In this document: in pieces, positions 15,820 to 57,561 of the stretch
Layout: every line of letters begins with the position of its first letter
Numbering within the stretch: the stretch's first letter is position 1
Assembly: GCA_030429705.1 (NCBI GenBank)
Contig: JAUIES010000001.1
Span: forward strand, 1,364,001 to 1,428,000
Direction: 5' to 3'
Source of the DNA: Phycisphaerae bacterium
Lineage (GTDB): Bacteria; Planctomycetota; Phycisphaerae; Phycisphaerales; UBA1924
Length of the DNA stretch: 64,000 bases
The notes under the pieces: generated by a model
What the model saw: the letters and a program-made list of their open reading frames with translations, nothing else
The model's database searches: none
Told to the model about the DNA's origin: nothing
Position numbers and translations under genes: made by a program

Positions 15820-17343
15820 TTACGGTGCGTCGGATGAAGATCGCGTGCGTATGTACGAGGATGCGGTCAGAGCAAGAAGTGCTGCACCGATCGCCTGGTG
15901 AGCCGTGGTAAATATCGCTTCGACCACAGGCAAGGCGTGCGCGCTGGCGAGTTCCTCGGCTTCGGGAATGGGTCGCTGTGCGTCCGCCGTAACAACCAGA
16001 ATCACCGCCACGATTCCCAGTGCGACCTGGGTCGACACCAGATGAATCAGCCCGAGCCCGCGCCGTTTGGCCCATCGGCCCAGTTCACTCTCCCGATCGG
16101 CCTGCCGCAACGACATGCCAAGCAGGACCACAAGCGTTAGTACCGCGATCGCGAGCAGGATGTGGCCGCCCAGATACGCATGACTGCCCGTGTGCCTGTA
16201 ACCCGCGCCCAAGATCAACTGCAGGATCAAGGCAATCAAGGACATCTTTGCAAACCCACACCCTTGCTGGAGCGCCCTGTTCGTTTGCCCGGAAAGATCG
16301 CTTGCAGGTTGTTGTTGGCTTCGATACATGGTTGACGCGAGTGCAGCAGCACACGCCAGAACCAACTGCGCAAGTACACCATGCACCATTGCCAAAGGCG
16401 TCGAGATTTCGCTGACGCGCAATGCTCCGAGCAGCCCTTGAGCGATGACAAGAACGAGAATGCCGACCCCCCCGAAACCAATGCGTCCAAGAATAATCGC
16501 ACGCCAGGTGAGCACGAGTGCGATAGCCGTCAGTCCGATGATGGCCCAGACAGCGACAGCAACACTGACCGTTTCAGCGCTTTCAGCCGCGAACACGCCG
16601 CCCAGCATCGCGATCAGGATCAGCCCGCACATGCCCGCAACCCAGGCGCGTTCACGCAGCATGCACCACAGAGCAAGCACGATCGCGGTGACACCCACAA
16701 GGGTGCCGAAGAGGCGATGGGTGTGCTCAAAAAACACACGCGGCTCGGCCATCAGCGAAAGCGGGAACAGAAACGACACCGAGCCATAGGTGGTGACTGA
16801 GTCCGGCACCGCCATCCCCGATTCGGTGCTGGTGACAATGCCCCCTGCGACAACCAAAGGCCAGATCGCAAATGCCAATACGGACGCGAACCTGCCGATC
16901 CACATTGGCTGTGAGGATGGGTCGCGGGCGAATCGATTTCCAACCAATCCGGCGACAGCTCCTGCAAGGGCGCTGACGACAAGGAACCCAAGAACGACGG
17001 CCGCAGCATCTGGGCGCAACTGATTCGTGTGTTCCGTCAGGGCTTCGGTCGATTCTGGTTGAACGACCACCCGATTGCCGAGAAGGAGTAGATTGACACA
17101 CGCCGCGACAAACCCAGCCACGAGACCGACCATCCAGGGCGAGTGCCTGTGAGTCCTTCCCGCCAGCGAACTGCCCTTGAGGCAAACGAGGATGAGAATA
17201 CCACCCAGAACAGGGGTTGCTATAAGGCTTGGTGCATTGACACCTGGCAAGTGGAGCACATACCAACCGATCCACATGGCGACGGCAGCCGCAAACCCAA
17301 TGACGAGCCCGGGCTGAAGAATATGACGCGAGGTTTGCTGCAT
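15820..17343 (-). CDS. ctaA: Heme A synthase, COX15/CtaA family, with N-terminal extension
   Basis: A 507-residue polytopic membrane protein. The core from about residue 150 has the COX15/CtaA signature: GGIVTSTESGMAVPD followed by TTYG, the EHTHRLFGTL heme-ligand motif, a second histidine in HGVLAQL, and a pseudo-repeat with TGSHAYLGGHIL and TTAHQAIGAAL. CtaA oxidises heme O to heme A, needed by the caa3 oxidase encoded next door. The usual W after VPD is replaced (VPDSVTTYG). The first ~145 residues form an extra module with about four hydrophobic helices, making it longer than typical CtaA. The start at 17343 is an inference. It diverges from the ACIII-caa3 operon, which supports the assignment. 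Confidence 0.85.
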   Translation of the reverse strand: MQQTSRHILQPGLVIGFAAAVAMWIGWYVLHLPGVNAPSLIATPVLGGILILVCLKGSSLAGRTHRHSPWMVGLVAGFVAACVNLLLLGNRVVVQPESTEALTEHTNQLRPDAAAVVLGFLVVSALAGAVAGLVGNRFARDPSSQPMWIGRFASVLAFAIWPLVVAGGIVTSTESGMAVPDSVTTYGSVSFLFPLSLMAEPRVFFEHTHRLFGTLVGVTAIVLALWCMLRERAWVAGMCGLILIAMLGGVFAAESAETVSVAVAVWAIIGLTAIALVLTWRAIILGRIGFGGVGILVLVIAQGLLGALRVSEISTPLAMVHGVLAQLVLACAAALASTMYRSQQQPASDLSGQTNRALQQGCGFAKMSLIALILQLILGAGYRHTGSHAYLGGHILLAIAVLTLVVLLGMSLRQADRESELGRWAKRRGLGLIHLVSTQVALGIVAVILVVTADAQRPIPEAEELASAHALPVVEAIFTTAHQAIGAALLALTASSYIRTRSSSDAP

Positions 17344-53486: not shown

Positions 53487-54530
53487 GTGATACAGACCGC
53501 CCCCACAAGCAAACCGACCATCGCCATAACGATGGGCGACCCCGGCGGGATCGGCCCGGAGATCATCGCCGCTGCACTCGATGATCGAGCGCTGCGTGCG
53601 CGAGCGAGGCACATCGTTCTTGGGTCAGTTTCTGTTCTGGAACGGGCAGCAGCCCAGCGCGGCATCGAGCCGTATTGGTGGACGGTCCCGTTCGGTTCAC
53701 CCGCGGCTCAGGATGCCAAAGCGCACGATGTCGTCGTCCTCGATACTGATCGTGCGTGGGGGCCCATCGAACCGATCGCGCAGGCTGCCAAGAGCGCAGG
53801 CGCGTATTCGTATCGACTGGTCGAAGAAGCGATCGGTCTGTGTCAGTCGTCGTCAGCATTGCAGGCCCGCGGCATCGTGACAGGTCCGATTTGTAAAGAA
53901 GCGTGGTCACTTGCAGGGAAGACTCGATTTCCGGGGCACACCGAGTTGCTCGCACACCACTTTGGTGTCAAGCGGGTCGCGATGATGTTCGTGGGCCCAG
54001 CGCTGCGCGTGGTGCTCGCGACCGTGCATGTGCCTTTGATGGAGGTCCGCAATTTGCTGACCATCGGCAGGGTGCTAGATGCGATCGAGTTGGGCGCACA
54101 GGGGTGTCGCACCGTCGGTATCGAAAAACCTCGCATTGCGGTGTGTGGCCTCAACCCGCACGCGGGTGAGCATGGCATTCTCGGTGACGAAGAGACACGA
54201 CTCATACAACCGGCGATCGACATCGCCAGACAGCAGGGGATTGATGCGCACGGCCCGTTCCCGGCGGACACGATTTTTCTCGATGCAATTGCGCACCGAT
54301 TCGACCTCGTCGTTGCGATGTATCACGACCAGGGCCTGATCCCGGTCAAACTGATCGCGCGCGACGAGACAGTCAACATGACGGTCGGTTTACCAGTCAT
54401 CCGCACCAGTCCTGACCACGGCACGGCATTCGATATTGCTGGTCGAGGGCGCGCCAACTTCGGCTCAATGAAGGCAGCCATTCGACTCGCGCAGGAAGCC
54501 GCAGTACCGGTTGGAATGTCACATGGGTGA
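53487..54530 (+). CDS. pdxA: 4-hydroxythreonine-4-phosphate dehydrogenase
   Basis: A 347-residue PdxA, the NAD-dependent dehydrogenase of the DXP-dependent vitamin B6 pathway. Marks are ITMGDPGGIGPEII at the N-terminus, GPICKEAWSLAG, FPGHTELLAHHF with a metal histidine, CGLNPHAGEHGILGDEE, GPFPADTIF and MYHDQGLIPVKL. The start is a GTG at 53487 without a strong ribosome binding site. The 200-base region upstream, between it and the divergent subtilase, shows no other gene. It overlaps the MATE gene by 8 bases. Confidence 0.94.
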   Translation: MIQTAPTSKPTIAITMGDPGGIGPEIIAAALDDRALRARARHIVLGSVSVLERAAAQRGIEPYWWTVPFGSPAAQDAKAHDVVVLDTDRAWGPIEPIAQAAKSAGAYSYRLVEEAIGLCQSSSALQARGIVTGPICKEAWSLAGKTRFPGHTELLAHHFGVKRVAMMFVGPALRVVLATVHVPLMEVRNLLTIGRVLDAIELGAQGCRTVGIEKPRIAVCGLNPHAGEHGILGDEETRLIQPAIDIARQQGIDAHGPFPADTIFLDAIAHRFDLVVAMYHDQGLIPVKLIARDETVNMTVGLPVIRTSPDHGTAFDIAGRGRANFGSMKAAIRLAQEAAVPVGMSHG

Positions 54531-56103
54531 GCACGATCCCATGGAAAAACCCGAGGCTCAACTTGCCAAGCGAGCGAGCCCGCTGCGCGAGATGATGATG
54601 ATCGCCGCCCCCTCGGTCGCGACGATGGCGTCATACACCCTCATGCAATTCTTTGATCGGCTCATGGTCAAAGACATCGGTCCTGACCCGGTGTACCTTG
54701 CCGCCCACGGCAACGCGGCGATTGCAACCTGGACCCTGCTCACTTTTGCAGTGGGGATCGCCGGCATTGTGAACTCTTTTGTATCGCAGAACCTCGGCGC
54801 GGGGAAGCCCGAGCGCGGGGCTGCGTATGCGTGGAACGCGATCTGGATGGGGGTCATGTATTGGGTCGCGCTGATGCTTCCCGCTGCGATTATCGCCCCG
54901 ACGATCCTTCGCTGGTTTGGACATGAGCAATCGTTGTATGAACTCGAGTTGCAGTACTTTCAGATCGGTCTGTATGGTTCCATTTTCACGCTTGGCGCGA
55001 AGGCAATCCACAATTACTTCTTCGGGATGCATCGACCGGGGATTGTGTTGATCTCAGCCGTCATCGGGAATCTCACCAACATCTGCCTGAATGCATTGTT
55101 GATTTTCGGTGCCGAAGGCCCGCCCGACCATTGGCCGCTGGCGGACACCATCAGATCGATTGCTGCGGCGGGTCACTTCCCCAAAATGGGTCTGGCCGGG
55201 GCGGCTTTGGCGCTGGTCATCGGGACGGCTGTCGAGTTCATCATTCCGTTTGCACTGTTCCTCGGGCCAAAATACGCCAGGCAATATGGCACCCGGAAGG
55301 CCTGGCGAATGCACGGACAGACGCTGCGCGACATACTCCGCGTTGGTTGGCCGGCGGGCTTCATGTTCCTCAATGAACTCCTGTGCTGGGCATACTTGAT
55401 GTCATTTCTGGTTGGAGCAGCTGCAGAGCGGGCTGCCGAACGGGCCGGCCAGACCGCTGAGCAGGTCGAACACGCCGGGACGATCGCGATCACAGCCGGA
55501 TTTGCCGCATTGCAATGGATGCACCTGTCATTCATGCCAGCGGTCGGGCTCTCAATTGCGACGCAGGCGTTGGTCGGAAAGGCGATCGGCGCCAAGGACC
55601 CTGATGCAGCAGCCGCTCGGGCTCGGCTTGGTTTGACGATCGCCATGATCTACATGGGTCTCTGTGCGTTGTTGTTTGTGGTGTTTCGAGCGCCATTGAT
55701 CGAGTTGTTCGTCAATCGGGATACGACCGAAGCCGATGCAGCCTCGATTTTGGCCAGTGGGGTACAGATCATGATCGCGGCAGCGGTGTTCCAAGTCTTT
55801 GATGCAGTTGCGATTACGCTTTCTGCAGCGCTGCGCGGTGCGGGCGATACGGTGTGGCCTGGCGTGGCGCAGATCGTCCTCGCGTGGGTCTTTATCGTCG
55901 GGTTTGGGCATGTGCTGATCGAGATTGACCCATCCATCGGCCCGATCGGACCCTGGATCGGGGCATCCGCCTACATCGTGCTTCTCGGGGTGTTTCTGTA
56001 TGTCAGGTTTCAGTCCGGTAAATGGCGGACGATCCGCCTCACCCATACCGATACGCTGCACAATCTCCCCCCCGATGACATCGCACCCGGGCCCGGTCTC
56101 TGA
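54523..56103 (+). CDS. MATE family efflux transporter
   Basis: A 526-residue MATE (multi-antimicrobial extrusion) transporter with about 12 helices. The N-terminal lobe starts LREMMMIAAPSVATMASYTL; the family's VNSFVSQNLGAGKPERGAAYAW segment is present in recognisable form (FVSQNLGAGKPE), and the second lobe has LQWMHLSFMPAVGLSIATQALVGKAIGAK (in part). It probably exports cationic drugs or metabolites against Na+ or H+. The ATG at 54523 is chosen as it overlaps the pdxA stop; an ATG at 54541 is possible. A small UUCG-loop stem follows the stop (56109-56120) but lacks a T-tract. Confidence 0.9.
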   Translation: MGEHDPMEKPEAQLAKRASPLREMMMIAAPSVATMASYTLMQFFDRLMVKDIGPDPVYLAAHGNAAIATWTLLTFAVGIAGIVNSFVSQNLGAGKPERGAAYAWNAIWMGVMYWVALMLPAAIIAPTILRWFGHEQSLYELELQYFQIGLYGSIFTLGAKAIHNYFFGMHRPGIVLISAVIGNLTNICLNALLIFGAEGPPDHWPLADTIRSIAAAGHFPKMGLAGAALALVIGTAVEFIIPFALFLGPKYARQYGTRKAWRMHGQTLRDILRVGWPAGFMFLNELLCWAYLMSFLVGAAAERAAERAGQTAEQVEHAGTIAITAGFAALQWMHLSFMPAVGLSIATQALVGKAIGAKDPDAAAARARLGLTIAMIYMGLCALLFVVFRAPLIELFVNRDTTEADAASILASGVQIMIAAAVFQVFDAVAITLSAALRGAGDTVWPGVAQIVLAWVFIVGFGHVLIEIDPSIGPIGPWIGASAYIVLLGVFLYVRFQSGKWRTIRLTHTDTLHNLPPDDIAPGPGL

Positions 56104-56158
56104 CCAGAGCCTTTCGAGGCGCTACAGTTGAAATCGCACGAACTTTAGTGGAGGCAGT

Positions 56159-57343
56159 ATGTCGACAGATCCAATGGATGTGGTCATCGGTGCAGGTCCC
56201 TCGTCTCAGCGTGATACCGCCGAGGCCGAGCGTCACCTCAACGCCGCGACCAACCTGCTCACCGGCGGCGAGAAAATCGACGCCATCACCGAACTCCGGG
56301 CAGCCGTCGCTGCCGACCCGTACAGCACCGACGCGATGTTCCGACTCGCGTACCTGCTCGACCTGGTCGGCGAGGAGGACGAAGCCTTGTCGCTCTACGA
56401 GCGCGTGTGCGATACCTCTCCCGCGCCGATCAACGCGCTGATCAACCTCGCTGTGCTCTACGAAGACCGCGGCGACTATGTCCGCGCCGAACGGAGCCTG
56501 CGGCAGGTCCTCGAGACCAACCCGAACCATGTTCGGGCCCGGCTCTTCATGAAGGACATCCAGGAAAGCCGCAGCATGGTTATCGAAGAGGACTCGGAGC
56601 GCGACCTGATCCAGAAGAAGGCGCTCATGGATACCCCCGTGACGGACTTCGAACTGTCAGTCCGGGCTCGTACTTGCCTCAAGAAGATGAACATTCGGAC
56701 GCTGGGCGATTTGCTTCGCATCACCGAAGCCGAACTGATGAGTTACAAGAACTTCGGCGAATCATCGCTCGAAGAAATCAAGAAGATGCTCACGGCCCGC
56801 AACTTGCGACTCGGGCAAGGGCTCGAAGATGCACACCGCGCCGCACGACGCCAGATCATGGAACGCCTCAAGGGCACTGGCAAAGAGGGCGTGTTCAATA
56901 AACTTGTCACCGATCTCCAGTTGTCTGTCCGTGCTCGCAAGGCGCTGCAGATGCTCAACATTCAGACCATCGGCGACCTGATCAGCCACACCGAAGCTGA
57001 ACTGATGGGTGTCAAAAACTTTGGCGCCACATCGCTCGACGAAGTCAAAGAACGCCTGACGGATTACGGGTTGAGCCTGCGGATGCTTGAAGAAGACGAG
57101 ATCGGCATCATGCCTTCGAAGTTTGATACACCTCCGGGCACCACCGAAGCATTCAACGCCGAACTGGCTGCCCTGTCCGCGGACGCGCCATATGAAGCGC
57201 CTTCGGAATTTTCGGCTTCCGTTGACTCGGAATCAGTCACTGAGGCGATCGACGAACCTGAGACCCTGGCAGCATTAGAAACGCCCGAATCAACCGAAGA
57301 AACTGTTGTTGAGCCAGCGATTGATCCGGAAGAGACACCTTAA
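56159..57343 (+). CDS. TPR protein with two tandem RNA polymerase alpha-CTD-like domains
   Basis: A 394-residue protein. Residues ~24-137 are three to four TPR repeats. Two helix-hairpin-helix domains follow, each close to the C-terminal domain of RNA polymerase alpha. The first (160-219) has FELSVRARTCLKKMNI, IGDL-type TLGDLLRITEAEL, KNFGESSLEEIKKML. The second (249-308) has LQLSVRARKALQMLNI, TIGDLISHTEAELM, KNFGATSLDEVKERL. Counterparts of E. coli alpha R265, N294, G296 and S299 are kept; N268 and K298 are not. The C-terminal ~85 residues are acidic and disordered. GGAGG sits 4 bases before the ATG. It has its own terminator. The role is likely in transcription but unproven. Confidence 0.88.
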   Translation: MSTDPMDVVIGAGPSSQRDTAEAERHLNAATNLLTGGEKIDAITELRAAVAADPYSTDAMFRLAYLLDLVGEEDEALSLYERVCDTSPAPINALINLAVLYEDRGDYVRAERSLRQVLETNPNHVRARLFMKDIQESRSMVIEEDSERDLIQKKALMDTPVTDFELSVRARTCLKKMNIRTLGDLLRITEAELMSYKNFGESSLEEIKKMLTARNLRLGQGLEDAHRAARRQIMERLKGTGKEGVFNKLVTDLQLSVRARKALQMLNIQTIGDLISHTEAELMGVKNFGATSLDEVKERLTDYGLSLRMLEEDEIGIMPSKFDTPPGTTEAFNAELAALSADAPYEAPSEFSASVDSESVTEAIDEPETLAALETPESTEETVVEPAIDPEETP

Positions 57344-57377
57344 CGGCAAACGCTTGATCACGATTGTGAAGACCTCG

Positions 57378-57406
57378 CCGACCGGCCCAAGCCGGTCGGT
57401 TTTTTT
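57378..57406 (+). terminator. Intrinsic terminator after the TPR/alpha-CTD gene
   Basis: A perfect 9-bp GC-rich stem (CCGACCGGC / GCCGGTCGG) with loop CCAA, followed directly by seven T, 35 bases after the stop at 57343. A textbook Rho-independent terminator. Confidence 0.95.
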
Positions 57407-57561
57407 GTCTCAATCGACCAAAGTGCCTTATCGGTCGAGGTATGACCGCGCCCAGCCGGAGCATTCCACCCATTCGATCAGTGGTCAGCCTCATCACGCA
57501 AAGTTCGCCTTGCATCCATGCCGATGTCTCCAACGCTTGTCACCAAGTCAGGGAGTCACCA

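Follow-up and report, generated by a model that had tools for sequence, protein, structure and literature searches.

Bacterial RNA polymerase recognises UP elements and many activators through the C-terminal domain of its alpha subunit (alpha-CTD), which is normally joined to the N-terminal domain of the same subunit (alpha-NTD). Proteins with alpha-CTD-like stretches outside rpoA are called 'RNA polymerase alpha C-terminal domain-containing' in databases. The window (the whole 64,000-nucleotide stretch of a Phycisphaerae genome that was analysed) contains a forward-strand gene for such a protein (56159–57343, ATG start, delineated by the ORF call, Pfam matches and relatives); the product of 394 aa combines tetratricopeptide repeats (TPRs) with two alpha-CTDs, designated D1 and D2.

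Judging from partial profile matches, alpha-CTD-like stretches outside rpoA are already catalogued. The NCBIfam model NF005841 (PRK07758, hypothetical protein) lies outside rpoA and partially matches the alpha-CTDs of the window protein with 43.3 bits, missing its cut-off of 115; it is a model of 95 positions and thus has no room for TPRs or a tandem. The BREX kinase PglW, represented by a 1,391-position model, gave a partial match to residues 132–230 (46.1 bits, cut-off of 990 missed), and stretch 1314–1378 of the RNA polymerase beta' model NF011498 (PRK14906) matched residues 249–314 with 35.1 bits; the latter describes a polymerase subunit, and the window protein misses its cut-off of 1437. 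The alpha-CTD of RpoA itself (PF03118) has the same fold as D1, and D1 of the distant members of the family has the same DNA-contact residues, but, unlike RpoA, the window protein carries two copies behind a TPR domain, and no alpha-NTD family was found among the best 25 of its 31 Pfam matches. The full-length RpoA model TIGR02027 reached 128.2 bits against a cut-off of 227.8, with the best stretch at positions 209–297 of 298. A separate rpoA is present in the same genome, on contig C7, and an rpoA fragment was ruled out as an explanation, since no alpha-NTD was seen.

Searches of the literature found, among the matches listed, no description of the layout with TPRs and a tandem of alpha-CTDs, of its near-universality in the phylum or of its constraint beyond that of RpoA. 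No mention of the protein was found in the P. limnophila essential-gene paper (PMC10632474), and the words 'tetratricopeptide' and 'TPR' are absent from its main text.

A phage protein was rejected as a candidate, with no PHROGs family matched at E ≤ 1e-2 (0.01), and so was a defence protein, with only partial PglW and PrimPol matches in PADLOC. With E ≤ 1e-4, the tandem region matches thirteen records of the phage collection, of which four carry an rpoA annotation; alpha-CTD-like matches occur in the human-gut phage records MT836419.1 and MT839982.1. Matches in the viral structure library are mainly TPR-type, Sel1-type or unnamed proteins, and the BFVD entry A0A6J5QDR9, a phage protein of 133 aa, bears the name RNA polymerase, alpha subunit, C-terminal. 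Among 36 matched plasmid records, no place covered 80% of the query. The 16.6-kb Yoonia plasmid NZ_CP150953.1 matches residues 146–364 at 15982–16374 in two pieces with 41% identity; no gene is entered there in its incomplete gene table.

Domain Architecture and Predicted Structure

Pfam searches clearly indicated PF03118 (RNA_pol_A_CTD) in two stretches of the protein (E-value 1.6e-39, 133.9 bits, cut-off 23.8), and each of the two domains is also above the cut-off alone. Several TPR families, including PF13428, PF07719 and PF14559, are above their cut-offs at residues ~28–130. The TPR domain, delimited by Pfam, AlphaFold 2 modelling and fold matching (residues 20–139, 56216–56575), contains three repeats and further helices. 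D1 (residues 159–219, 56633–56815, PF03118 score 75.6 bits) is followed by a linker (56816–56899) with a predicted helix at residues 220–237, which is the least conserved of the five protein segments compared, and by D2 (residues 248–308, 56900–57082, 67.1 bits). The protein ends with an acidic tail (residues 313–394, 57095–57340), mostly of low model confidence and missing from most of the aligned relatives; it has 82 residues and a net charge of −21, and only five other aligned near relatives are longer than 325 aa, the longest having 369 aa.

AlphaFold 2 modelling with 53 relatives (the structure alignments included 53/66 relatives and the window protein) gave pLDDT values of 94–98 over the TPRs and 89–97 over the two C-terminal domains, taken in blocks of ten. 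The TPR fold matched 4cgv_C (Z-score 17.5, rmsd 2.1 over 126 residues) and is shared by the peptide-binding TPR domains of RPAP3/Spaghetti, OGT and PP5 (Z-scores ~16–17.5), a match which points to no particular ligand. D1 matched 8y5l_A2 (Z-score 12.9, rmsd 0.8 Å over 67 residues) and D2 matched the Helicobacter pylori alpha-CTD 2max (Z-score 9.8, rmsd 2.4 over 74 residues). Comparisons of the whole protein with the PDB were filled by TPR proteins, and the tandem was modelled by itself; all 50 matches listed for this model were RNA polymerase or alpha-CTD entries. A Foldseek comparison also belongs to the evidence for the alpha-CTD fold.

The presence of two alpha-CTDs beside TPRs and outside any rpoA, first proposed in a sequence-only reading of the window, is confirmed by both the PF03118 score and the fold. 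The same reading had named a generic helix-hairpin-helix fold as the outcome that would speak against it; structure modelling did not return this fold, and the generic family HHH_5 scored 20.7 bits, below its cut-off of 27. Since all 50 listed structure matches were polymerase or alpha-CTD entries and HHH_5 stayed below its cut-off, the domains are not generic helix-hairpin-helix modules, and a chance match is ruled out on the grounds of the PF03118 score, the alpha-CTD fold and the conservation of the protein throughout the phylum. Both C-terminal domains are genuine alpha-CTDs.

Distribution in Planctomycetota

A search across the phylum, as had been suggested with the first description, revealed relatives (E ≤ 1e-25) in 241 of the 244 genomes of Planctomycetota (the window's own genome included); 240 of these 241 genomes have one match each, and one (G229) has two. 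Among 41 close genomes, again counting the window's own, 40 contain a near full-length relative. The protein is thus not an oddity of the window genome; it is nearly universal and almost always single-copy in the phylum. A scan of contigs for close relatives yielded 67 named loci under planctomycete titles, mostly beginning with Phycisphaer-, with the exception of L017, a record titled Cyanobacteria. The relative in L017 is 82% identical and has the same pdxA, MatE and antiporter neighbours as in the window, so this title looks wrong.

Four genomes without a near full-length match (G001, G062, G120 and G182) were searched again with a profile. G120 retains the end of D1, together with D2, in a frame at the edge of a contig and thus has the gene in truncated form. 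An rpoA match and TPR-only matches were obtained in G001, a 73-aa fragment and TPR-only matches in G062, and a single alpha-CTD match in G182, where the frame of 346 aa has the length of an rpoA. An rpoA and the two domains of this protein should together give three PF03118 matches, and 51 of 59 genomes have exactly this number, counted per genome rather than gene by gene; the eight exceptions have two (three genomes), four (three genomes), five (one) or six (one) matches. The highest totals belong to G054 (six) and G126 (five), and extra alpha-CTD matches in short frames occur at G151:C1:4088706-4088888 (155 aa) and G164:C14:61784-61975 (109 aa).

After identical proteins had been merged and L002–L004, copies of the window gene, excluded, the alignments contained 122 family proteins and 44 RpoA proteins. 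The 23 family proteins from genomes outside the window's order are referred to as far; the other 99, referred to as near, comprise the window protein, those of genomes of its order and, whatever their order, the relatives from the contig scan. Far relatives seem, from their stop-to-stop frames of 432–661 codons (20 fetched), to have longer N-termini. In one genus, represented by three genomes (G104, G161 and G178; loci L186, L187 and L188), D2 is absent and the TPRs and D1 are kept.

Conservation Relative to RpoA

A tree of 94 rows and 61 columns, built with 34 of the 122 family rows and 26 of the 44 RpoA rows, placed D1, D2 and the alpha-CTD of RpoA in one group each (support 98/95, 98/75 and 100/98, respectively); because of the few columns and the long D2 branches, the deeper branching order is unresolved in it. 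The mean identity between the three groups is 0.44–0.48.

In the 20 genomes where both genes were compared (18 from the window's order and 2 far), D1 is more alike than the alpha-CTD of RpoA in 170 of 190 genome pairs and more alike than the alpha-NTD in 177 of 190, counts which do not amount to a significance test, since genome pairs share history. The mean pair identities are 0.775 for D1, 0.672 for the alpha-CTD, 0.650 for the alpha-NTD, 0.507 for the TPR domain and 0.679 for D2. By these alignments, D1 looks better conserved between genomes than the polymerase alpha subunit.

Residues of the DNA-Contact and Sigma-Contact Surfaces

Residues were numbered by the E. coli alpha sequence. R169 of D1 and R258 of D2 align with R265, and both domains have the KNFG motif (residues 197–200 and 286–289); the counterparts of N268 are replaced (T172 and K261), and so are those of K298 (S202 and T291). 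All of this agrees with what had been noticed in the letters of the sequence. For positions 265, 268, 294, 296, 298 and 299 (R, N, N, G, K and S in E. coli), D1 of the window has R, T, N, G, S and S, and D2 has R, K, N, G, T and S.

The altered specificity that had been suggested from the loss of N268 and K298 was not borne out in the wider family. T298 is found in 44 of 44 RpoA rows of the phylum, so the 'loss' of K298 is a trait of the phylum and not a peculiarity of the TPR/alpha-CTD protein, and N268 is kept in D1 of all 23 far rows. In far D1, the residues R265, N268, C269, N294, G296, T298 and S299 are present in 23 of 23 rows; all 44 RpoA rows of the phylum have R265, N268, C269, G296 and T298, with S or T at 299, and 19 of the 44 have N294. 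Of the 99 near rows, 57 have N, 41 have T and one has D at position 268 of D1. In D2, 98 of the 99 near rows have R265, R267, N294 and G296, 98 have K or R at 268, and 97 have T298. The entropy of the DNA face, given here with fractions of random residue sets at least as low that are uncorrected per-comparison values (12 comparisons per sample, three samples), is 0.08 bits vs. 0.72 for random sets in far D1 (23 rows and the window; fraction 0.006), 0.10 vs. 0.89 in near D2 (0.003), 0.87 vs. 1.42 in far D2 (0.033) and 0.31 vs. 1.08 in RpoA (0.004). The DNA face of near D1 is no more constrained than random residue sets (0.79 vs. 0.67, fraction 0.685). These patterns can be read as a passing of the DNA contact from D1 to D2 in the window's lineage. 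According to PMC11434276, the N268T substitution in E. coli RpoA abolished PBAD activity.

D1 is not RpoA-like in having R or K at position 267 and E or D at position 297; at the latter position, 43 of 44 RpoA rows from the phylum carry K or R. Positions 259 and 261 of D1 are both acidic (D or E) in every one of the 122 rows. In E. coli, the alpha residues 259 and 261 contact R603 of sigma70, as stated in PMC5511352, and the sigma-70-type protein of the window's own genome (L202) has, by eye, R at the corresponding place. RpoA is also acidic at 259 (38 of 44 rows) and 261 (41 of 44), and the conservation of the 261 set in D1 is no better than that of random sets (fractions 0.306 for all rows, 0.083 for near and 0.496 for far rows), so the sign of a sigma contact is suggestive only.

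TPR Groove

The conservation of the TPR groove was assessed with the register set by eye and with positions 2, 5, 9, 12, 13, 33 and 34 of the repeat, which we take to be the groove positions. The groove is as conserved as the structural positions in TPR2 (0.57 for groove, 0.58 for structural and 0.41 for other positions) and TPR3 (0.67, 0.67 and 0.46); TPR1 has no groove pattern (0.29 vs. 0.50 for structural and 0.32 for other positions). Residues F61, D68, N96, E102, D103, R126 and D133 are identical in at least 118 of 122 rows. The conserved groove of TPR2 and TPR3 implies a conserved, fixed partner, which fits the putative docking role ascribed to the TPRs from the outset; with several acidic residues among those conserved, the ligand may be basic.

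Proposed Role in Transcription

The reading we prefer, and hold tentatively, is that of a housekeeping transcription cofactor of Planctomycetota which supplies alpha-CTDs in trans. We infer its partner, DNA binding and transcription role as follows. The TPR groove would hold a single conserved partner, which probably belongs to the transcription machinery; D1 would act like an ordinary alpha-CTD and make contact with promoter DNA on the upstream side and/or with sigma region 4 or activators; and D2 would add a second contact. Since D2 is missing in one genus, the TPRs and D1 may form the functional core. For the window's lineage, the proposal is a shift of the DNA-contact constraint away from D1, with its change of N268 to T, and onto D2, where the R-R-K and K-N-F-G-x-T-S signatures are almost fixed. 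Points against the cofactor reading are the T at position 268 in D1 of the window, the unconstrained DNA face of near D1, the E or D at 297, the missing groove pattern of TPR1, the sharing of acidic residues at 259 and 261 with RpoA, and gene neighbours that do not link the protein to transcription.

A bolder formulation, which we consider doubtful, makes the protein a general initiation factor that differs from the ones found in model bacteria. Here, the TPR scaffold would bring a detachable pair of alpha-CTDs to RNA polymerase; RpoA would share the contacts with UP elements and activators with this second, more conserved protein, and the grip on DNA would have passed from the first alpha-CTD to the second in the window's lineage.

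Gene Signals, Neighbourhood and Alternative Roles

The gene has a GGAGG ribosome-binding site, read directly from the sequence (56150–56154, forward strand), 4 bases 5' of the ATG, and an intrinsic-terminator-like stem with a T tract downstream (57377–57406, forward strand; found by a stem search and fold score, with a fold z of −3.4 for 57344–57410); both signals had been pointed out in the sequence-only reading. The high expression claimed there is weakly supported: the codon adaptation of the gene is 0.76, which is rank 6 of the 41 window ORFs of at least 200 aa (median 0.71) and lies within the range of 0.70–0.80 for 14 ORFs picked by eye as ribosomal. The claim of separate expression was not borne out at the 5' end, where a MatE gene on the same strand stops 55 bases upstream; no promoter-like site was found on that strand. 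The MatE gene itself overlaps pdxA, the two occupying 53487–56103 on the same strand ahead of the TPR/alpha-CTD gene, and a Na+/H+ antiporter gene lies downstream (names by Pfam). Members of the MatE cluster occur in 35 and members of the pdxA cluster in 15 of the 87 clustered loci, the window included.

Neighbouring genes in other loci were named by Pfam for one or two members of each cluster and by clustering for the rest; Pfam confirmed RuvA in L128 and L119, RuvB in L128 and RuvC in L131, and secD-like is a tentative name. Neighbours linking the protein to transcription were not seen: they are ruvA, spoIID and tgt, with pdxA and MatE in the window's lineage. The address is, as far as gene order tells, a housekeeping one, and it keeps a repair role alive as a rival to the cofactor reading. 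As a factor of recombination, repair or the nucleoid, the protein would bind minor-groove or junction DNA with its alpha-CTDs and recruit a repair or chromosome protein with its TPRs. Nine of the 20 far loci have ruvA immediately downstream and two have it one gene away (with ruvC between in L131), the order in L128, L130 and L131 being gene – (ruvC) – ruvA – ruvB – queH – spoIID – tgt, and the conserved DNA face would suit such a factor as well. The same neighbourhood, however, also includes queH, spoIID, tgt and, after spoIID/tgt in some loci, yajC and the secD-like gene; spoIID or tgt is next in five far loci, L122, L124 and L127 have none of ruvA, spoIID and tgt adjoining, and in L118 the own frame was displaced in the ORF choice. 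In the 63 of 67 near loci where the own frame was kept, ruvA is never the next gene, yet the gene is still conserved there; 22 of them have spoIID directly downstream and 24 have MatE directly upstream. RuvC replacement is excluded, since ruvC is present in 59 of 59 genomes and the TPR/alpha-CTD protein therefore replaces nothing there. With domains that match the alpha-CTD and not HHH_5, we regard a repair role as unlikely.

It is more improbable still that the protein is a competitor or sink, whose free alpha-CTDs would bind activators or sigma factor unproductively as regards initiation, with a dampening effect on promoters that need the alpha-CTD of RpoA. The kept protein-contact positions and the T in place of N268 in D1 of the window would suit it, and E or D at 297 would be expected to disfavour DNA, but the full set of DNA-contact residues in every far D1 and the fixed basic set in near D2 argue against it, and a mere inhibitor need not exceed RpoA in conservation. 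Least probable of all is a role in connecting transcription to a second machine (the ribosome or the membrane, for instance), in which the TPRs would hold a partner outside RNA polymerase, and the alpha-CTDs would hold RNA polymerase itself, promoter DNA or RNA. In its favour, spoIID and tgt adjoin in several lineages, with yajC and the secD-like gene after them in some loci, and the TPR groove is conserved; neighbours are, however, a weak guide and differ between lineages.

Significance for Planctomycetota

The near-universal occurrence in planctomycetes of a docking module with two alpha-CTDs, almost always as a single copy, suggests that the phylum as a whole initiates transcription differently, and the greater likeness of its D1 between genomes, compared with RpoA, points to an unstudied core transcription helper. 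The family supplies the gene, a probable core composed of the TPRs and D1, and residue-level predictions, with which a phylum-wide difference in transcription becomes directly testable.
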